64,000 bases of DNA from Candidatus Bathyarchaeota archaeon A05DMB-2 (GCA_018475625.1 JAAKEZ010000002.1:124001-188000); one strand, 5' to 3'; shown: positions 42,849-52,168, counted from the first letter of the stretch. The notes: generated by a model from the sequence alone, not told the origin. Made by a program: numbers and translations.

Positions 42849-42953
42849 TGCCGGGGGCGGGATTCGAGCCCGCGACCTCTGGCGTTGAGCGTTTAGCCCC
42901 ATTCGTCTCCAGATTATGAGTCTGGCGCCCTAGCCAGGCTAGGCTACCCCGGC
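42849..42953 (-). tRNA. tRNA-Met (CAT, elongator), with a 30-nt intron
   Basis: Minus strand: acceptor GCCGGGG/CCCCGGC, D arm GCCT...GGGC, anticodon arm CCAGA-CTCATAA-TCTGG (anticodon CAT), T arm GCGGG-CTCGAAT-CCCGC, discriminator A, and encoded CCA (42846-42848). A 30-nt insert (42879-42908) separates the complete anticodon stem from the variable loop AGGTC. Removing it gives a typical archaeal elongator Met tRNA. The intron is therefore after position 43/44 and not the usual 37/38. The CAT anticodon could in principle be tRNA-Ile2, but the acceptor and T arm match elongator Met. Its 5' end is the integration site of an element. Confidence 0.93.
42940..42953. repeat. Left attachment-site repeat (in tRNA-Met)
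   Basis: A 14-bp direct repeat, TAGGCTACCCCGGC, formed by the 5' acceptor strand and D-stem start of tRNA-Met. It matches the copy at 50253-50266. Confidence 0.7.
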
Positions 42954-43008
42954 TGTTTTTTATGGAGTTTTTCTTGACCTCGACTGTTTTAGTAAAGTTT
43001 GCGGTTGT

Positions 43009-43971
43009 TTATTTACATTTTCGGAAGAGTTTGCCGCCGTCGTTGTATTCGCCTGTGATGTATTCGAAGCCTGTTTCGATGAGTTCTATTGCTTCGCCGA
43101 TGTTATGAGCGACTCTGCAAGTGAAGTTGTCGTCAATGTCTTTGAATAGCTTTTGGTCAAGCTGTACGTAGATCAGGATGTTCTCGAGTTTTTTGTATTC
43201 TAAGAGGGCTGCAACGTGCAATGGGTCTTTGGTTCTATGGTATTCTATTGTGGCTTTCCAGTGCCTGAAAGTGTGGAAGTGTATTTGGAGTAGGCGTGGG
43301 TTTTGAAGGTTTTCTGCGAGTCTTCGTCTTGCCAGTTGAAGTGATGATTTGAGAGAGCTTATTGGGCCTTCACCGAAGATTTTTGGGCTTGTTTTCGGTA
43401 GTGCGTTTAGCATGGCTGTTAGTTTGTGGCTTGTGTTCCAGATGCGTGGGTTGCTGTTTTTCTCTGGTTCGTTTAGGATGATGATTCGTCTTTCAAGGTC
43501 TACGTCTGTCCATTTTAGTCTTTTTGCTTCGCCGCATCGCATGGCTGTTTCTTTTAGTAGTTGTAGGAATGTTGCCAGTTTTTTGTTGCAGCTTGCGATT
43601 AACGCGTCGATTTCTTGTTCGGTTGGGATGAAGGGGATTTTACGTGTTATTTTGCATTTTGGTTTTTCCCAGTGCATTCCGTTGACTTTGAGGAAGAGGT
43701 TGTATGAGTTGATGACGTTTTTGCGTCGGTTGTCGCTCCATTTCTGTTTCATGATTACTTCTTTGACTGAGTCGGTGTCCAGTAGGTTGGCGCCTCGTTG
43801 TTGTAGAATTCTTAGGGCGCCGTTGGTTGTGCGTATTGTCTCTTTAGCGTAGCCTTGTTTTTCCATGTACCAGATGCATGAGACGATTTTTCCTTTGATG
43901 TCTGGTGTTTGCTCTGTGGCCCCCGCAGCCTGTTTTTCTATTCGGGTTTCCACTTTGACCAAGGTTTGCAC
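43009..43971 (-). CDS. Tyrosine recombinase (phage-type integrase)
   Basis: A 320 aa site-specific recombinase. The N-terminal SAM-like core-binding domain (YMEKQGYAKETIRTTNGALRIL, about 35-60) precedes the catalytic domain. That domain shows the first Arg in ETAMRCGEAKRLKWTDVDL, the HxxR box in IHFHTFRHWKATIEYHRT, and the nucleophilic Tyr in ENILIYVQLDQ. It lies 55 nt from the tRNA-Met 5' end, the attachment site inferred here. The reading frame is intact, so it may still be active. Confidence 0.9.
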   Translation of the reverse strand: MQTLVKVETRIEKQAAGATEQTPDIKGKIVSCIWYMEKQGYAKETIRTTNGALRILQQRGANLLDTDSVKEVIMKQKWSDNRRKNVINSYNLFLKVNGMHWEKPKCKITRKIPFIPTEQEIDALIASCNKKLATFLQLLKETAMRCGEAKRLKWTDVDLERRIIILNEPEKNSNPRIWNTSHKLTAMLNALPKTSPKIFGEGPISSLKSSLQLARRRLAENLQNPRLLQIHFHTFRHWKATIEYHRTKDPLHVAALLEYKKLENILIYVQLDQKLFKDIDDNFTCRVAHNIGEAIELIETGFEYITGEYNDGGKLFRKCK

Positions 43972-44085
43972 CGCCTTTGTGGCGATGGGCGCTCGCTTGT
44001 CTGGGTCATGGCACCCTTGGCAGTTAGAAAGTATGGCTTAAGAGCTATTTATTGATCCGTTCAGAATTTTTTGTAGAGGGTTTTA

Positions 44086-44106
44086 TGTGTGTGCGTGTGC
44101 GCAGAG
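44086..44106. repeat. GT-rich repeat, copy 1
   Basis: TGTGTGTGCGTGTGCGCAGAG, next to the stop of the tautomerase-like gene. Related in sequence to copies at 44441-44455 (same orientation) and 44596-44613 (inverted). Confidence 0.5.
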
Positions 44107-44316
44107 TCATGGTACTTTTGTCTTTGCGAGTTTCTCTGAGTCTGAATGTAGTTTTCCGCCTGTTGCCCAGTTTGTTTTAGGCGCTTCGTAGATGATTATT
44201 TCCACAGCTTCTTTTGGGATTCCTATATCCTCGAATACCTTGGTGATCCCTTCAACGATTTTCCGTTTACTTTCTTTGCTAATGCCCGCCCAAACGGAAA
44301 CCTGAACCACTGGCAA
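44107..44316 (-). CDS. 4-oxalocrotonate tautomerase family protein
   Basis: A 69 aa small tautomerase with the catalytic Pro directly after the start (MPVVQVSVWAGISKESKRK), as required for the free N-terminal proline. The second half (KVFEDIGIPKEAVEIIIYEAP) matches the family helix and strand. Substrate is unknown; known members act on enol-keto acids. Located within the putative element and flanked by GT-rich repeats, so it may be cargo. Confidence 0.85.
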   Translation of the reverse strand: MPVVQVSVWAGISKESKRKIVEGITKVFEDIGIPKEAVEIIIYEAPKTNWATGGKLHSDSEKLAKTKVP

Positions 44317-44846
44317 TACAATTCACCAATAAAATAAGAGCACTGCTAAATATATTTAACACCTGCGTGTTTTTCATCAAATTTGGCATAAAATTTGCGA
44401 AGCTTTCTTCTATAAGGGTTGTCTACGTTATTTTTCAGTTTGTGTGTGTGCGTGCACTCTCTTTTAGTCTCTCTGTTTCTTTATAGAAATATGCTTCTTC
44501 TTTGTGATGAAATAATAGTCTCTCCGCTAACTACCTTTGCCTTATTCATCTTCGTTTATTCCTACTCTAAGCGTGTTTAGTCTCTGTTAGAGTCTCTGCA
44601 CACGCACACACTAAACTTTTTCAGCGTTTGTCTTCTTTTCCTGTTTTGCTATTGTGTCTGTTTTTTTGTTGGCTGGCTGTTCATGTTTGTTGATGTTTCT
44701 TCATTGTTTCTTTTCGGGAGTAGGCTTTGAGGAGCGGTAGGTTTTCCTCAAGCTTTTGGTGTTTCGGTTTGTGTTTATAAAGGGTTTTGTGATTCGACAT
44801 TTCTGGTCTGGGGAGAGAAGAGTGAAAGTGAAAAACGTAGGAAAAA
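44317..44846. other. Intergenic region with inverted GT-rich repeats
   Basis: 530 nt with no convincing gene. It holds GTGTGTGTGCGTGCACTCTC (44442-44461) and its approximate inverse CTGCACACGCACACACTAAAC (44596-44616), each associated with repeated AGTCTCT motifs. A TATA-like GTTTATAAAG near 44772 is the likely hsdR promoter. Confidence 0.45.
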
Positions 44847-47813
44847 TTGCAGGAGAAAGGCTGGAGATTCGTTTCTGCCGACAATTTGGAACGTGAAAGT
44901 CTTGAAGAGCCTCTGCTTACTCCTGTGCTGATTAGAGCCTTGAAACGTTTAAATGCTGACATAGGCATAGGCGACGAAGAAATAAAACAAGTCGTGAACG
45001 AGTTAAAACTTAAAACAAGCGGAGCAGAATACTGCAAACAAATCCTCAACAACATGAAAGACGGCATCCTAATAAAATTCGAAAAAGAACGCGAAGTCAA
45101 ACGGGTTAAACTCTTCGACTACGACAACATTAACAACAACGAGTTTATCGTAAGCCGCCAAGTCATCCACCAAAGCGGCGACAAACAAATCCGCAACGAC
45201 ATAATCCTATACATAAACGGCATCCCAACAGTCAACATAGAATGCAAAAACCCCACAAGCCTAACAGAAAACTGGTACACAACCTATAAGCAAATACAGG
45301 AATACCAACAAACAGTTCCAGAACCATACAAATACATCCAAATAGGCGTAGCAGCCGAACAAACAGCCCGCTATTTTTCCACAGCCCCATGGCAAAAAGA
45401 AGACGTAAAAATCCACCAGTGGCGCACCCCAGACAAACCCGACCCGTTAGACGCCCAAACAGAAATGCTAACCCCACAAACCCTACTCAACATAATACGC
45501 AACTACACTTTCTTCCGCATAGAACACGGAGCCACAACCAAAGTCATAACCCGCTACATGCAATACCAAGCAGCAGAAAAAATCTACAACCGTGTAACCG
45601 CCCACTTACAAGGAAAAACAGACAAAAACAAAGGCTTAATCTGGCACTGGCAAGGCTCAGGCAAAACGCTAACCATGATATTCGCCGCCAACAAACTCTA
45701 CAAAGACCCGCAACTTGAAAACCCAACCATATTCTTCATAGTAGACCGCGAAGAACTCCAAGAACAACTCTACCAAGAATTCACCGCCCTTTACATAACA
45801 AAACCCGAAACCGTAGACACCATAAACACCCTAAGACAAATCCTAAGGCATGACGAAAACAGAGGAAAACGCGGCATCTTCATAACCCTAATCCACAAAT
45901 TCCGCCCAGAAGAACTCACCCAACTCCAAAACGAACTCAACGCCATAAGCCAAACACAAACAACAATACAAAACCGCAAAAACGTCATCCTCTTCATAGA
46001 CGAAGCCCACCGCACCCAATACGGCATCCTCGCCTCCCAAATGAAACAAACCCTAAAAAACGCCCTCGCCTTCGCCCTAACAGGCACACCCATAGCTAAA
46101 CCAGCCAGAGACACATACCAAGAATTCAGCTACCCACCAGAAGAAACATACTTAGACAAATACTTCATAACCGACAGCATCCAAGACGGCTTCACACTTC
46201 CAATCGCCTATCAACCCCGCCTCGAAAAAGACGTCCACCTCAAAAAAGAACTCCTCGACACCTTCATACAAGTAGAATTCGAAGAAATCCCAGAAGAATA
46301 CCGAGAAAAAACCGAAGAACGCATAAAACAAAAACTCAACGCCATAAAAGTCTTCCTCGAAAACCCAGAACGCATAAAACTCGTAACCCAAGACATAGCC
46401 CAACACTTCAAAGAAAACCTCGACGGCAAATTCAAAGCATTAGTTGTAGCCGTCAACCGACTCGCATGCGTCCGCTACAAACGCGAACTCGACAAACACC
46501 TACCAAAAGAATACTCAGAAGTCGTCATGACCTTCACAAGAACCGACCCCCAAGAAATCCAAGACTACCAAAAAGAATTAACAACCCGATACCACGGCAA
46601 AGACATCGAAGACACAAGAAAACAAATAATCGACAACTACAAAGAACAAGACTATCCCAAAATCCTCATAGTAACAGACATGCTCCTCACAGGCTTCGAT
46701 GTCCCAATCCTCCAAACCATATACCTCGACAAACCACTAAAAGAACACAGACTCCTACAAGCTATAGCCCGAACAAACCGACCATACAAAGACATCAAAG
46801 AAGCAGGTCTCATAATCGACTACGTAGGCATACTAAAAGAATTCACCAAAGCCTTCGAAAACTACACCAAAGAAGACATCCAAGGCGTACTCCTCGACCT
46901 AAACACACTAACCCAAGAATTCACCCAACTCATCGACCAAACCACTGCACTCTTCCAAGACATCCCCAAAGACCAGGACGACAGACAAACCATGCTCAAA
47001 GCCTTCGAAACCATAACAACAAACGAACAAAACGCCAAAAAATTCCAACAAAACTACCGCCACCTAAGAAAACTCTTCGAACTCCTCGGAACTCAGCCAA
47101 TAAAACTCCAAAAACTCAAAGAATACACATGGCTCACACAAGTCTACGACTACTACATCCACTGGCTCAGACAAGAACGATACGAAGAATACCGATACGT
47201 CCCAAAATACTTCCCAAAAACCCTCAAATACGTCTACAAAACCACACAACTCGCAGACATAGAAAAACAATACCCAACCATCCAATTCGACGCAGACTAC
47301 CTCAAAAACCTCCAAGAAAAAATAAAAACCAAACAAGAAAAAGCCGCAAACATCCTCTTCACCCTAAACCGCTTCATCATCATAGACAAACACAGAAACC
47401 CCATATACGAAACCCTCACCCAAAAAGTCGAACGCATACTAAAACTCTGGAAAGAAAAAACCAAAGACTACGAAAAAATCTACAACCAAGCCGCCCAAAT
47501 CGTAAACGAAATCCAACAACTCCAAACCCGCCAAAAACAATTAGCTTTCACAGACCTACAATATGCAATACTCCTGACCCTCGAGCAAAAACTCCCCCAA
47601 AGCAAAGACCTCACCACAGATGTCCAAGAACTCACCAAACAGCTCCAACCACAACTATTCAAAGGATGGCAAACCCAACAAACCACAAGAAAGACCATAG
47701 AACGCGAAACCCGCAAATACCTAAGAAAATACATCAAACAACACGGCTTAAGCTTAGCAAACCTCGACGAACTCCACCAAAAAATAATGGAAAGCGTGAA
47801 AACTTATGGATGA
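44847..47813 (+). CDS. hsdR: Type I restriction enzyme HsdR-like subunit (orphan)
   Basis: A 988 aa restriction-translocation protein. The N-terminal nuclease domain shows RNDIILYINGIPTVNIECKNPT, a PD-(D/E)xK active site (ECK near residue 131). The helicase follows: Walker A in WHWQGSGKTLTM (about 266-277), the DEAH box in LFIDEAHRTQYG (about 382-393), and motif VI in EHRLLQAIARTNRPY. The C-terminal helical region contacts the methylase in type I systems. No hsdM or hsdS is in the window. Codon choice is strikingly A/C-rich (CCA, ACA, AAA, ATA), unlike the neighbours, suggesting transfer. The start is TTG, since an in-frame TAG precedes it. Confidence 0.88.
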   Translation: MQEKGWRFVSADNLERESLEEPLLTPVLIRALKRLNADIGIGDEEIKQVVNELKLKTSGAEYCKQILNNMKDGILIKFEKEREVKRVKLFDYDNINNNEFIVSRQVIHQSGDKQIRNDIILYINGIPTVNIECKNPTSLTENWYTTYKQIQEYQQTVPEPYKYIQIGVAAEQTARYFSTAPWQKEDVKIHQWRTPDKPDPLDAQTEMLTPQTLLNIIRNYTFFRIEHGATTKVITRYMQYQAAEKIYNRVTAHLQGKTDKNKGLIWHWQGSGKTLTMIFAANKLYKDPQLENPTIFFIVDREELQEQLYQEFTALYITKPETVDTINTLRQILRHDENRGKRGIFITLIHKFRPEELTQLQNELNAISQTQTTIQNRKNVILFIDEAHRTQYGILASQMKQTLKNALAFALTGTPIAKPARDTYQEFSYPPEETYLDKYFITDSIQDGFTLPIAYQPRLEKDVHLKKELLDTFIQVEFEEIPEEYREKTEERIKQKLNAIKVFLENPERIKLVTQDIAQHFKENLDGKFKALVVAVNRLACVRYKRELDKHLPKEYSEVVMTFTRTDPQEIQDYQKELTTRYHGKDIEDTRKQIIDNYKEQDYPKILIVTDMLLTGFDVPILQTIYLDKPLKEHRLLQAIARTNRPYKDIKEAGLIIDYVGILKEFTKAFENYTKEDIQGVLLDLNTLTQEFTQLIDQTTALFQDIPKDQDDRQTMLKAFETITTNEQNAKKFQQNYRHLRKLFELLGTQPIKLQKLKEYTWLTQVYDYYIHWLRQERYEEYRYVPKYFPKTLKYVYKTTQLADIEKQYPTIQFDADYLKNLQEKIKTKQEKAANILFTLNRFIIIDKHRNPIYETLTQKVERILKLWKEKTKDYEKIYNQAAQIVNEIQQLQTRQKQLAFTDLQYAILLTLEQKLPQSKDLTTDVQELTKQLQPQLFKGWQTQQTTRKTIERETRKYLRKYIKQHGLSLANLDELHQKIMESVKTYG

Positions 47814-48378
47814 ACTTGTTGAATACACGGTAGCCTACCGCAACGTAAAACACCCACGCCTCGAATACAAAACAGGCACCCTATTGTTAATATTGCCTAA
47901 GGGCTCCAAAAACGAAAAACAAACACTCGAAAAATACCAAAAATGGATACACAAGAAAGAACTCACCATCAAAAAAGCCTTAGAACAAGCCAAAACCAAA
48001 AAACTCGTCAGCAGAACAGACAAAGAACTAAGAAGCCTCATCCACACACTCGCCCAAAACTACCAAACACAACTCAACACAAAAATCAACAAAATCTACT
48101 TCAAGAAAATGAAGACAAAGTGGGCAAGCCACAGCAAAAACGGAAACCTAACCGTCAACACCCTCCTAAAATACCTGCCCCCAGACCTAATTGAATACAT
48201 AATTTATCACGAAACAACACACTCCGTAGAAAGAAAACACAATGAAAAATTCTGGAGCATCATAAATAAAAAATTCCCAGACTACCAAACCAAAGAAAAA
48301 GACCTACTAACCTACTGGTTCACAATCCAAAAGAATTTGGTCAACCTAACGTCGTCGAAAATAAGGAGTAATGTTTGA
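47806..48378 (+). CDS. YgjP/M48-type zinc metalloprotease
   Basis: A 190 aa metallopeptidase-like protein with the zinc-binding helix HETTH in IIYHETTHSVERKHNEKFW (about residues 133-151), the later Glu ligand region and the upstream KTKWASHSKNGNLTVN block typical of YgjP (COG1451). Members of this family often sit next to hsdR in type I restriction loci. It overlaps hsdR by 8 nt and shares its unusual base composition. The substrate is unknown. Confidence 0.85.
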   Translation: MDELVEYTVAYRNVKHPRLEYKTGTLLLILPKGSKNEKQTLEKYQKWIHKKELTIKKALEQAKTKKLVSRTDKELRSLIHTLAQNYQTQLNTKINKIYFKKMKTKWASHSKNGNLTVNTLLKYLPPDLIEYIIYHETTHSVERKHNEKFWSIINKKFPDYQTKEKDLLTYWFTIQKNLVNLTSSKIRSNV

Positions 48379-48428
48379 CACGGCAACTTGTCAAGAGCTA
48401 ACAAGAAGCTTCTGACAGCCAACACCAG

Positions 48429-50132
48429 TTAAGAGAGTAGCATGAAAAGTGGTGCTGGAATCGCTACAAAATCTTCACTCAGACGAGTTTCCTTGCCTCT
48501 ATAGACCAATATTCCTCTAACTCCTAACTGTGTACTCATCCTTACTACCTTCTTTACATGATCACTATCAACTTCCTCACCAGAATAAACCTCTACAGGA
48601 ACAAGCCTCCCCTTGATGTCTACCAAAAAATCTATTTCCCTACCAGACTGCGGCTTATAATAGAACATCTTTCTCTTCAACAGCCTCAAATCCTGAATCA
48701 CTTCTAAAGAGAACACCATATGAGCGACATTACTGGCCACAACCATTTCCGTCATAACCCCTCTCCAACGATCTGACATATTCAAAACCATAGAATAAGC
48801 ATCCCTATTCCCGGCGCTCATCGCCTTAAAAGCATAAAACATCAACGGATCCCAGAAATAGAATTTCCTTGGAGTTTTCACCGGCGACCTACGCCTACCG
48901 AACTCCTTCAGCTTTGCAACTTCAAGAAGCACAAACGCATCCACAAGATAGTCCAGATATTGTTTAACCGTATTATGCGAAATACCAAGCTTAAGCGCTA
49001 AGCTATTGGCACTCGTTTCCTTTATAGGAACAGTCTCATATAACCCACCAGGAGCCTCAAGCAATTCCCACAAAATATTGTAAAGCGTGTCTTCGTTCAG
49101 ACGCCATTTCATGGCATCTTTGACCGCAAGATCGATAAACTCTGAATAAACACTCGGATCAATTCTTCCCAAAGCAAGTTGTTGCCGAATCGCCAGCGGA
49201 AAACCACCCGTTAGAAGATAGTTCTCAAAATAGGCATACAACTCATCCAGATAAGCCTCAGCCATCTCCAACGCTACTGGCATTTTGCCAGCGGGTTTAG
49301 CAAGCTCCATAAAGGCTTCAAGTCTTTTCTGAACCTCCAAAAACCTCTCATTAGTAAAGAAGTCCCTTAGAGCACGTCTTCCAGCCAACTGCTCCTTATA
49401 GTATGCATATTCAGCAAACTTCATCGGAAAGAGCAACTTATCGTTGCCACCTTCCAACATTACTCCCTTTCTCAACCCAAGAACCTCAGCCCCTTTCTTA
49501 ACATCCAAACTGTGACTACCTGTAATCAACAACTTTACCCTGTTCTTTGTTAGAAGACCAGCATCAAAAAGATCCTTCACAGCCACCTGCCAATTCCGCA
49601 AACTACTAACTTCATCCAGAAAAACGTAAGCGCTTCCAGGATAGTCTCTCCTTCTGGCAAGAAAATCGCGAATTATGTTTGCTAAGCCTTCAACACCGCC
49701 CAAGCCAGCTCTATCGCACCGAATATAAACCACCTTGAGCGGATTGGCCTCCTTTGGGTGAGAAAGAGAATAAAGAAGAAGCTCTCTTAACAAAAGCTTG
49801 ACAAGTGTAGTCTTTCCAACCCGCCTTGGCCCCCTTATGCTTACAAGAACATAACCTTCTGCAGTATCAAACAGGATATTCTTTCTCAAGAGAAAAAGAA
49901 GCCTCGGCATCCATATCTCATCAATCCTCAACGCAGCACCCGCTCTTCTCTGTTGACCAAGCTCTGGATCTCGCTCCCCCATCTCCTCAGTCAAAGGTAC
50001 CCTAAGCAACTTTTCCATTTCTTCAGGCGACGTTTTCTCCACAGTTTTCACTAAACCCTCCAGGAAACTCAGGAAATCAGGTCTCCACCACCAATTATCC
50101 TCAACAACAGTTGATATTGACAAGTTTATCAT
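48429..50132 (-). CDS. AAA ATPase with DUF4143-type nuclease-like domain
   Basis: A 567 aa ATP-binding protein. The P-loop is GPRRVGKTTLVK (residues about 101-112) and Walker B is AYVFLDEVSSLRNW (about 167-180), giving an AAA_14 module. A winged-helix segment follows (LALKLGISHNTVKQYLDYLVD), then a C-terminal DUF4143-like domain resembling a PD-(D/E)xK nuclease fold (QSGREIDFLVDIKGRLVPVEV). Many archaea carry families of such proteins, whose role is unknown. The gene sits directly behind a perfect inverted-repeat operator and lies inside the element. Confidence 0.85.
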   Translation of the reverse strand: MINLSISTVVEDNWWWRPDFLSFLEGLVKTVEKTSPEEMEKLLRVPLTEEMGERDPELGQQRRAGAALRIDEIWMPRLLFLLRKNILFDTAEGYVLVSIRGPRRVGKTTLVKLLLRELLLYSLSHPKEANPLKVVYIRCDRAGLGGVEGLANIIRDFLARRRDYPGSAYVFLDEVSSLRNWQVAVKDLFDAGLLTKNRVKLLITGSHSLDVKKGAEVLGLRKGVMLEGGNDKLLFPMKFAEYAYYKEQLAGRRALRDFFTNERFLEVQKRLEAFMELAKPAGKMPVALEMAEAYLDELYAYFENYLLTGGFPLAIRQQLALGRIDPSVYSEFIDLAVKDAMKWRLNEDTLYNILWELLEAPGGLYETVPIKETSANSLALKLGISHNTVKQYLDYLVDAFVLLEVAKLKEFGRRRSPVKTPRKFYFWDPLMFYAFKAMSAGNRDAYSMVLNMSDRWRGVMTEMVVASNVAHMVFSLEVIQDLRLLKRKMFYYKPQSGREIDFLVDIKGRLVPVEVYSGEEVDSDHVKKVVRMSTQLGVRGILVYRGKETRLSEDFVAIPAPLFMLLS

Positions 50133-50135
50133 CCA

Positions 50136-50159
50136 ATCTTGTCAGTGAGTTGACAAGAT
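50136..50159 (-). promoter_or_regulatory. Inverted-repeat operator of the AAA/DUF4143 gene
   Basis: ATCTTGTCA and TGACAAGAT form a perfect 9-bp inverted repeat with a 6-nt spacer, 4-27 nt upstream of the ATG. A third half-site (TTGACAAG) lies at 50117-50124 inside the gene. The site overlaps the probable TATA (TTATATC, minus) and transcription start, so a repressor bound here would block initiation. Confidence 0.7.
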
Positions 50160-50252
50160 ATAAGCTTTTCCCACAATAACCATTATAAGAAGAAAAAGGA
50201 TAAATCAACCAGAAAAAAGGGATTTGCGGGGAACGCTTATTCTGAGTGAAAA

Positions 50253-50266
50253 TAGGCTACCCCGGC
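50253..50266. repeat. Right attachment-site repeat
   Basis: Exact 14-bp copy of TAGGCTACCCCGGC, the 5' terminus of tRNA-Met, same orientation as the copy at 42940. No other tRNA-like sequence surrounds it, as expected for the far end of an integrated element. Confidence 0.7.
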
Positions 50267-50374
50267 ACAAGCTGTTTTCCAGTTTGGAGATAGCAGCTAC
50301 TACCTGAGTTTCCCTTCTGCTTGATAAAGATTTTCGGTTGACGCATTACTTTGCGCGGCATGGTCAAAAAATGT

Positions 50375-50587
50375 TTAGGTTTCGGCTGGTTCTTGCATTA
50401 TGCAGGGTTCTTTCTTATTTGCTCTCCTGCAACTGGCTTTTAAACTGTTGAACTCGGGGCAGTCGAAACAACTTACGGCTTTTTGGTTCGCCGCTGTATC
50501 TGGTTTTGCTCTTTTTTGCGCCAATTTTCTCACGAGGTGATCCAAGAATAGTTTGCTTGACACTGTTAATTTGTTTTGCGTCTTCAA
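50375..50587 (-). CDS. Small Cys-rich hypothetical protein
   Basis: A 70 aa frame with a basic N-terminal half and a Cys-rich end (SCFDCPEFNSLKASC, then EPCIM). The motif DCPxxxSL recurs in the frame at 50878-51114. No known family is recognised and no clear Shine-Dalgarno is seen, so this is a tentative gene. Confidence 0.4.
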   Translation of the reverse strand: MKTQNKLTVSSKLFLDHLVRKLAQKRAKPDTAANQKAVSCFDCPEFNSLKASCRRANKKEPCIMQEPAET

Positions 50588-50619
50588 CCAGAAAGGGCGA
50601 CGGCTCCCCTGTAAAGCGT

Positions 50620-50763
50620 TTAGTCATCTATTATTTCAAGCATGGGTTTTCCGCAGCAGACTGGATTATTCTGCGCATGACAATCATGCGAGCGCGTGCA
50701 GTTGCAAGCTTCGTAGGCAGCTTCAACTTTTTTACCGCAGACTTTGCATTGAAACGTGGGCAC
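50620..50763 (-). CDS. 47-aa Cys-rich zinc-ribbon-like protein
   Basis: A short frame starting at GTG: PTFQCKVCGKKVEAAYEAC, then NCTRSHDCHAQ and VCCGKPMLEIIDD. It has seven Cys and two His, arranged as CxxC plus CC pairs typical of small zinc or iron-binding ribbons. The composition is clearly protein-like and the frame ends in a proper stop. It could be a small zinc-finger or rubredoxin-like domain protein; function is unknown. The Shine-Dalgarno is weak. Confidence 0.65.
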   Translation of the reverse strand: MPTFQCKVCGKKVEAAYEACNCTRSHDCHAQNNPVCCGKPMLEIIDD

Positions 50764-51454
50764 TCTTGTTCGCCGCCCAAACATGAGAGGCGAGACCCTA
50801 AAAAGCGTTGTTCTAAAGGAAGGCTACAGATACTCTTAAATCGCATAAGCTTACTTCAATTATAATTGCGCAGTCTCTTACCCATGCTTATCCCCAAGAC
50901 TGTGCAGGTTGGGGCAGTCGCTGCTTAGGCAGTTTTCTGCTGCCTCATCCTTCTGCTTACTTTTTGAAGATAATTGTGGAGAGCGTGTTTTGTGACGAAA
51001 AAGAGGGAGAGGGAAAGAGTCGTTTCGAAATTTTATGCACAGAGGCTGTGCGGATGTGTTTGACAGTGATAGCAAAGTACTCAATGCTATTCGCGTAAGT
51101 TTGAACCCTAGCACGTAGCTTCGTGGTTGAGCGGTTTCCCGCGCGTTGAAGCTCTGAGGTTTCCGGGATAGACTTTGACTCTTTCCCTCATATAATAATA
51201 GACATGAAAATTATTTAAGAATTGTGCACTGAGAAGCCATTGAGGCTAACAGGCAATCCTGAATTACCCAAAAAATAAAAGCGTTTATTTTCTGTTTTAA
51301 CCTCTGTTTTACAAGAGGTTGGAATGGCGTAAAGAGCCCATTTTTCAATTTAAAAGACGCAGTCGTTGAAGCGTTAACATCTCTTGGGGTTCCGGCGCAG
51401 TCTCCGAGGCAAGGGAATACGTAGAGAGTATGTGAGAAAGGCTTTCGCAGAGCG
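50764..51454. other. Gene-poor region right of the element
   Basis: About 690 nt with no strong gene. On the minus strand it holds a weak frame at 50878-51114, and near 51151-51200 the nonamer CCTCAGAGC with an upstream TATA-like TATTATATGAGGGA, a third copy of the shared promoter-like element. Confidence 0.4.
50878..51114 (-). CDS. Tentative small protein with C-terminal DCP motif
   Basis: A 78 aa frame whose C-terminus AENCLSSDCPNLHSLGDKHG resembles the Cys-containing segment of the small protein at 50375-50587 (CFDCPEFNSL). The N-terminal half looks non-coding, so the true gene may be shorter or absent. Reported because the motif is repeated. Confidence 0.25.
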   Translation of the reverse strand: MLGFKLTRIALSTLLSLSNTSAQPLCIKFRNDSFPLPLFRHKTRSPQLSSKSKQKDEAAENCLSSDCPNLHSLGDKHG

Positions 51455-52168
51455 CTATTTTCTTTTTCTCTCAATCTTCTCCACACCAGAAGCCGTTCCA
51501 ATATACGCAGCGTCTGCCAAGCCTATGAAAAGTCCAGTTTCAACCACTCCTGGAATCATCTTCAGCTTCCGTTCAAGCGCCTCAGCGTCATCTATAACTC
51601 CGAAAACAGCGTCGATGACTGCGTTGCCGTTGTCCGTTATCACAGGTCCCAGTTTGCCCTTTCCCTCTCGCAGAACAGCTTTCCCGCCAACCGCTTCTAT
51701 CCCGCGCTGCACCACGGCTATGGCAAACGGCAACACTTCAACTGGCACTGGATGACTGTTTTCACCGAGCGTCGCCACTTTCTTGTGCTCGTCTGCGATG
51801 ATGATGTTCTGTTTTGACGCTGAAGCCACGATTTTCTCTCGCGCCAACGCTGCGCCCATGCCCTTAATCAGGTTCAGTTTCGGGTCTATCTGGTCAGCAC
51901 CGTCAATAGTTAAGTCAACCACTGGATGCTCTTCAAGCGTGGTCGCTGGGATTCCATGCTTAACTGCCAACAGAAACGCTTGATAAGATGTTGGCACGCC
52001 AAGCACGCTTAAGTGCTCTCGCTTTGCTCTTTCGCCGAGTGCTTCTATGGCGTAAGCGGCTGTGCTGCCACTGCCCAAGCCGACGATGAAGCCGTCTTTA
52101 ACGTGCTGGACCGCCGCGTAAGCTGCTTTTTTCTTCGCCGCCTCCACCAGTTCCCGTTCAGGTTTCAA
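51455..52168 (-). CDS. rpiA: Ribose-5-phosphate isomerase A
   Basis: Interconverts ribose 5-phosphate and ribulose 5-phosphate, supplying the ribose for PRPP and so for the purine pathway. The 237 aa enzyme shows FIVGLGSGSTAAYAIEALGE, VPTSYQAFLLA, the catalytic DLTIDGADQIDPKLNLIKGMG, the REKIVASAS region, and the closing VVETGLFIGLADAAYIG. The start is TTG, overlapping the preceding coiled-coil gene by 11 nt, so the two are probably cotranscribed. Confidence 0.96.
   Translation of the reverse strand: MKPERELVEAAKKKAAYAAVQHVKDGFIVGLGSGSTAAYAIEALGERAKREHLSVLGVPTSYQAFLLAVKHGIPATTLEEHPVVDLTIDGADQIDPKLNLIKGMGAALAREKIVASASKQNIIIADEHKKVATLGENSHPVPVEVLPFAIAVVQRGIEAVGGKAVLREGKGKLGPVITDNGNAVIDAVFGVIDDAEALERKLKMIPGVVETGLFIGLADAAYIGTASGVEKIERKRK

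Follow-up and report, generated by a model that had tools for sequence, protein, structure and literature searches.

Can an integrase that keeps its own gene whole enter an archaeal genome through the front of a tRNA gene? The question is raised by a locus in Candidatus Bathyarchaeota archaeon A05DMB-2 (GCA_018475625.1), where an island lies against the 5' end of a tRNA-Met gene, within a stretch of 64,000 nucleotides (JAAKEZ010000002.1:124001-188000) that was analysed as a whole and is called the window here; positions are counted from its first letter. An earlier reading, made from the DNA alone and referred to below as the sequence-only reading, had proposed an integrated island that uses the 5' end of an intron-containing tRNA-Met gene. 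The analysis described here leads to the conclusion, held with a probability of roughly 0.93, that a 7,313-bp element (42940/42954 to 50252/50266) was inserted at the tRNA-Met 5' end by its own tyrosine recombinase. The repeat that bounds it, the empty site in a relative, the replication of the arrangement in ten other elements and the orientation throughout a clade of integrases were observed directly, and on these comparisons of sequences the island and its 5' site may be regarded as good as proven.

The 14-mer TAGGCTACCCCGGC, which is the reverse complement of nucleotides 1-14 of tRNA-Met, is present in the window in two exact plus-strand copies, at 42940-42953 and 50253-50266, whereas none is expected in a shuffled window (100 shuffles). 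Both the direct repeats and an integrase at 55 nt from the tRNA had been claimed before and were located as described, the latter as an open reading frame (ORF; 43009-43971) whose stop codon and the 5' end of the tRNA are 55 nt apart. The repeat covers the 5' strand of the acceptor stem, U8-A9, the 5' strand of the D-stem and A14. Elsewhere in the genome the 14-mer recurs once, on a small contig, where another tRNA-Met gene begins. The tRNA gene itself is intact: Rfam RF00005 matches it with 57.8 bits (42849-42953, minus strand) with an insertion of about 30-31 nt in the variable loop, and a canonical cloverleaf is regained when the sequence is folded as spliced, with about 30 nt after CTGGAG removed. 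Because of this intron the gene was missed by a default run of ARAGORN, which with introns allowed gives Met, in agreement with the CAU anticodon. The splice position would be 45/46, with a predicted bulge-helix-bulge formed from CUGG/CCAG with 3-nt bulges. Contig C71 of the same genome (G000:C71, L187:1-95) carries no more than the 3' half of a second tRNA-Met gene, from the anticodon loop onward, fused to unrelated sequence; it looks like the attachment (att) site of another element, one that targets the 3' half of the tRNA.

Further support comes from the empty site, for which the sequence-only reading had suggested a search in relatives. In a genome of the same genus (G001), the order is NMNAT, tRNA-Met, the sequence from window position 50267 on, and rpiA, with a single copy of the 14-mer and nothing in between, the flanks being joined exactly at the repeat (42953/50267). 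When the flanks of the window are joined at the repeat they give one unbroken alignment to G001 of 1,983 bp (89%), while the occupied window gives two alignments whose overlap on the subject is exactly the 14 repeat positions. G025 shares the native flank ending CTGGAAAACAGCTTGT, G033 has it one base shorter, and rpiA lies close upstream of tRNA-Met in many relatives of the taxonomic family of the host. These data bear on the idea that homologous recombination or misassembly placed the island and that the repeat is a coincidence. Even though the host assembly is fragmented, with 110 contigs and 2% estimated contamination, the contig that encloses the element is 318 kb long, the empty site is exact to the base and the same terminus returns in two other genomes (G034 and G058), which makes such an origin extremely improbable.

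The features of the locus, in window coordinates, are as follows.

42849-42953, minus strand: intact intron-containing elongator tRNA-Met(CAU), 5' end at 42953 (Rfam RF00005; fold of the spliced form)
42940-42953, plus strand: attL core, equal to tRNA-Met nucleotides 1-14 (14-mer search; empty-site junction in G001)
42954-43008, no strand: element-side leader (left arm), with the degenerate tRNA-start copy GTCGAGGTC about 30 bp upstream, kept in the integrase clade
43009-43971, minus strand: tyrosine recombinase (integrase) of 320 aa, reading toward the tRNA (PF00589, E 5e-14)
44107-44316, minus strand: tautomerase-like ORF of 69 aa (PF01361, E 2e-11)
44847-47813, plus strand: type I restriction subunit HsdR (TIGR00348, E 1e-205)
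47806-48378, plus strand: YgjP-like metallopeptidase (PF01863), overlapping the end of hsdR
48429-50132, minus strand: AAA_14/DUF4143 ATPase (PADLOC candidate defence family PDC-S01)
50208-50252, no strand: right terminus (right arm), TTTTCACTCAGAATA...CCCCGCAAATCCCTTTTTT on the minus strand, common to other elements of the family
50253-50266, plus strand: attR core, an orphan tRNA 5' fragment and the second copy of the 14-bp repeat
50267-51454, no strand: displaced native 5' flank of tRNA-Met, aligning to the DNA directly 5' of tRNA-Met in G001
51455-52168, minus strand: rpiA, beyond the displaced native flank

This layout suggests a mechanism in which the tyrosine recombinase of the element would catalyze site-specific entry into the tRNA-Met gene, with a crossover that probably falls within the first 14 bp of that gene, acting as attB. 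The putative attP would carry the same 14 bp between the left arm, which is the leader beside the integrase gene (int), and the right arm, with a predicted junction of left arm ...CTCCATAAAAAACA-GCCGGGGTAGCCTA-TTTTCACTCAGAATAAGC... After integration, attL would consist of the intact tRNA gene with element DNA upstream in place of the native flank, whereas the native flank would come to lie at the opposite side of the element, in front of the orphan 14-bp tRNA fragment at attR. Since att lies outside int and the integrase gene is whole, excision should in principle be possible.

Other insertions at tRNA-Met show the same arrangement. The right terminus GCCGGGGTAGCCTATTTTCACTCAGAATA stands at attR in two further tRNA-Met elements, in G034 and G058, and this shared terminus, together with the empty site, bears out the proposal that the 5' acceptor and D-stem region serves as att and leaves the intact tRNA at the left. 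The element of G034 (6.8 kb) has the att and right terminus of the window element, other cargo and an integrase that is 61% identical. Its attR is preceded by a leader like the window's, and an older insertion is therefore probably present upstream; the site probably holds a tandem array of insertions. The element of G058, which belongs to another family of the order, measures 3.2 kb and is without integrase; its tRNA and attR have a mismatch at position 13, placing the crossover at or before nucleotide 12 unless either copy mutated later. In the metagenome-assembled genome (MAG) G030, contig C2 carries tRNA-Met behind an element leader, and on contig C1 an identical tRNA with the identical 3' flank is preceded by different DNA that holds rpiA; two alleles thus coexist in the assembly. 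A D-loop of sequence GGAATGGGC is common to tRNA-Met genes behind two leader types (L023, L013, L012, L019, L026) and, apart from the C1 allele of G030, absent from the clearly empty sites that were examined; integration may sometimes exchange bases of the tRNA D-loop.

The arrangement also extends to other tRNAs. Ten further elements have paired att cores at tRNA 5' ends, the targets being tRNA-Met, -His, -Ser and -Pro genes. Besides the tRNA-Met elements, they are the following.

tRNA-His elements with paired att: G001, 14.3 kb; G007, 8.3 kb; G013, 20.6 kb; G095, 8.0 kb; G092, 9.3 kb
tRNA-Ser(GCT) element: 38.1-kb IMG/VR viral contig 3300032069_000027 (L185-L186), with a 27-bp 5' att at both ends
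tRNA-Ser(TGA) element of 2.9 kb and tRNA-Pro element of 4.9 kb, with paired att cores at the 5' ends

The larger of these elements were missed by an attR search with a 10-kb flank and recovered by pattern searches of whole contigs. The cores stop at about A14 in the Met, His and Ser(TGA) genes, whereas the cores of the Pro element and of the viral Ser element measure 21 and 27 bp; the two His cores of G001 differ by one base (GGCCGGGG and GGCCGAGG). At the tRNA-His site of G092 two tandem integrases (L188 and L091) enclose an att core, and the window genome has a second case on contig C103, where an integrase is followed by the start of tRNA-His. A tRNA-Leu (G034) and a tRNA-Tyr (G007) reported by ARAGORN were intron artefacts, which by eye are Met and His. 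The sequence-only reading also drew attention to the intron of the target; its use of the 5' end stood, but the idea that the intron plays a role was discarded, since tRNA-His, -Phe and -Ser genes that have no intron are also approached from the 5' side. That some integrases of the family adjoin the 3' end of Met(CAU) tRNAs with predicted introns was counted against such a role as well.

Homologues of the integrase (E up to 1e-30) were found in 112 of the 163 genomes of the order; named matches are mostly Bathyarchaeota MAGs, and 14 IMG/VR contigs also carry one. A tree of 98 sequences was made by a quick method, for which only the starred branches are relied on, and side labels give the adjacency of int to a gene, att pairs having been verified for eleven elements including that of the window. 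In the window's clade (45 rows, Shimodaira-Hasegawa-like approximate likelihood ratio test (SH-aLRT) 97), the tRNA-adjacent integrases number 28, and every one of them is located at a 5' end, with Met, His, Phe or Ser as the tRNA. The 41 rows of the other large clade include 24 integrases at tRNA 3' ends and 2 at 5' ends. Over the whole tree, two changes are needed to separate use of the two ends, and the clustering of each label was matched in none of 500 shuffles. The use of tRNA 5' ends is a clade-wide trait of this integrase family that reaches beyond the window locus. One member of the 3'-type clade, L102, lies on the 5' side of a tRNA-Pro gene and has a 21-bp att, so that 5' targeting probably arose a second time.

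Further targets occur in the family. The integrases L143, L149, L153 and L159 adjoin the 3' end of RNase P RNA (identified with Rfam for L143 and L153, by sequence likeness for the others), and L069, L096, L104, L108, L099, L118 and L139 adjoin starts of cooC-like, ychF and nadC genes or 3' ends of rtcB, by adjacency only and with gene names read from translations.

Such neighbours of distant members would be expected if the tRNA were incidental, i.e. if the integrase recognized a sequence that overlaps the start of the tRNA by chance. The fact that 28 of 28 tRNA-adjacent members of the window's clade face a tRNA 5' end (Met, His, Phe or Ser), and that Met, His and Ser(TGA) att cores end at about A14, makes this improbable, and insertion directed to the tRNA 5' end is preferred. 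The enzyme does not seem to be a XerA-type dimer resolvase, since its score of 73.4 bits is below the NCBIfam XerA cut-off of 220 bits.

The arms of the att sites also show conserved features. The leader between int and the tRNA, part of the element side of attL, repeats the tRNA start in degenerate form and direct orientation. In 9 leaders, those of the window's sub-clade, the offset is about 30 bp, and in the other 19 leaders it is 21 bp, spacings that are about one helical turn apart. Neither was reached in 300 shuffles, a significance that is inflated because leaders share descent. This test used full leaders and groups taken from the integrase tree, the repeats having been seen by eye beforehand; an earlier test on a shorter region (to about -12) found nothing. 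Among the right arms of 11 elements, eight show a signature of CCCGC, an A-rich stretch, CCC and a T-run, at p below 0.02 in each case; a scan of the genome for this signature picked up a single further site, on C78, besides that of the window. The left-arm repeat and the right-arm signature would be suitable as the arms of attP to which the recombinase or an accessory protein binds.

That tyrosine integrases can use the 5' end of a tRNA gene is already known, and the wider clade adds more interest than the single locus. For Bacteria, Zhao and Williams in 2002 reportedly described an element which 'reverses the usual target gene orientation', with a tyrosine integrase acting at a tRNA 5' end. 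In Archaea, the closest likeness is with elements of the pTN3 and TKV type of Thermococcales, which share the tyrosine recombinase, the use of the tRNA 5' part, the restored tRNA and the loss of the native promoter (Cossu et al. 2017, PMC5495485; review PMC8371274). The pTN3 integrase is of the suicidal SSV type (PF16795), with attP inside int, which is split on integration, and its att of 41 bp reaches the anticodon. The window integrase has a complete ORF (43009-43971) with att 55 nt past the stop codon, and its att of 14 bp ends at A14. No PF16795 (Phage_integr_3) match was found in it, PF00589 being the only match at E up to 0.001. An intact int with att outside it indicates a classical enzyme, unlike the suicidal type. 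The element shares these two properties, as well as the position of int beside the tRNA, with classical pNOB8-type archaeal integrases, but those use the tRNA 3' part and keep the native promoter, whereas the window element uses nucleotides 1-14. A survey of Thaumarchaeota found one such case among 39 tRNA-targeting elements, CalSub-E1 of Ca. Caldiarchaeum subterraneum (PMC6563490). This is a single case as opposed to clade-wide use in Bathyarchaeia, and it is likened here by its description rather than by comparison of integrases.

Integration at this end has consequences for transcription of the tRNA. A promoter from the element side had been suggested by the sequence-only reading; the geometry agrees with this, but in a box-A scan of 28 element leaders and 18 native flanks the sites in the leaders were weaker and scattered, with no clear box A. 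Read-through of the tRNA from int is therefore plausible, and expression may proceed via element-side transcription. In pTN3-like elements, the recombinant tRNA is reportedly expressed from the integrase promoter (PMC8371274).

The cargo, claimed earlier to be foreign-looking, indeed consists of HsdR, the YgjP-like metallopeptidase, the AAA_14/DUF4143 ATPase and the tautomerase-like ORF, and is defence-like in view of HsdR and the PDC-S01-type ATPase. The hsdR gene is accompanied by the metallopeptidase gene (44847-48378) but, within the element, not by hsdM or hsdS.

Some observations weigh against insertion by the element's own recombinase as proposed here. The element-side promoter has no sequence support of its own, HsdM and HsdS partners of HsdR were found neither in the element nor, for HsdS, in the whole genome, and box III of the integrase reads LEY where most relatives have LGH and the nearest relative, L098, has LGY. 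The replacement of His by Tyr and the preceding Glu make present activity of the integrase uncertain, and together with the unpartnered HsdR they suggest that the element may be ageing. It could even be a fixed relic, integrated as proposed, with an inactive integrase and a static island of defence genes. This is compatible with the proposed insertion, since it touches the present state of the element alone, and we consider it a serious possibility, at somewhat less than even odds. The Tyr and the neighbouring Gly-to-Glu change, the incomplete restriction system and the entire loss of the integrase from the related element of G058 would fit such a relic, but the nearest relative has the same Tyr, the integrase frame is intact and the att sites are perfect. 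In addition, some tyrosine recombinases have Trp at the position of the box-III His, which also counts against a relic.

If insertion by the element's own recombinase is accepted, a broader proposal can be considered, although we regard it as rather doubtful. The window's clade may be a group of non-suicidal integrases specialized on the 5' ends of tRNAs of at least four identities, with a paired recognition site at a distance of 21 or about 30 bp, and insertion may take over the transcription of an essential tRNA, which could tie tRNA supply to the element.

The integrase family is a large and little-described archaeal one, of Bathyarchaeia, with one branch found at the fronts of tRNA genes. 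A review in 2021 described use of the tRNA 5' half in Archaea as unique to suicidal pTN3-like integrases (PMC8371274); in Bathyarchaeia it is common, in a second and non-suicidal family with short cores that often end at A14. Island finders that are restricted to tRNA 3' ends will overlook such elements. The sister clades at tRNA 3' ends, at RNase P RNA 3' ends and at starts or ends of protein genes offer a natural experiment on switching of the target side. Insertion at the 5' end swaps the DNA upstream of essential tRNA genes, so that its influence on their expression can be put to the test.
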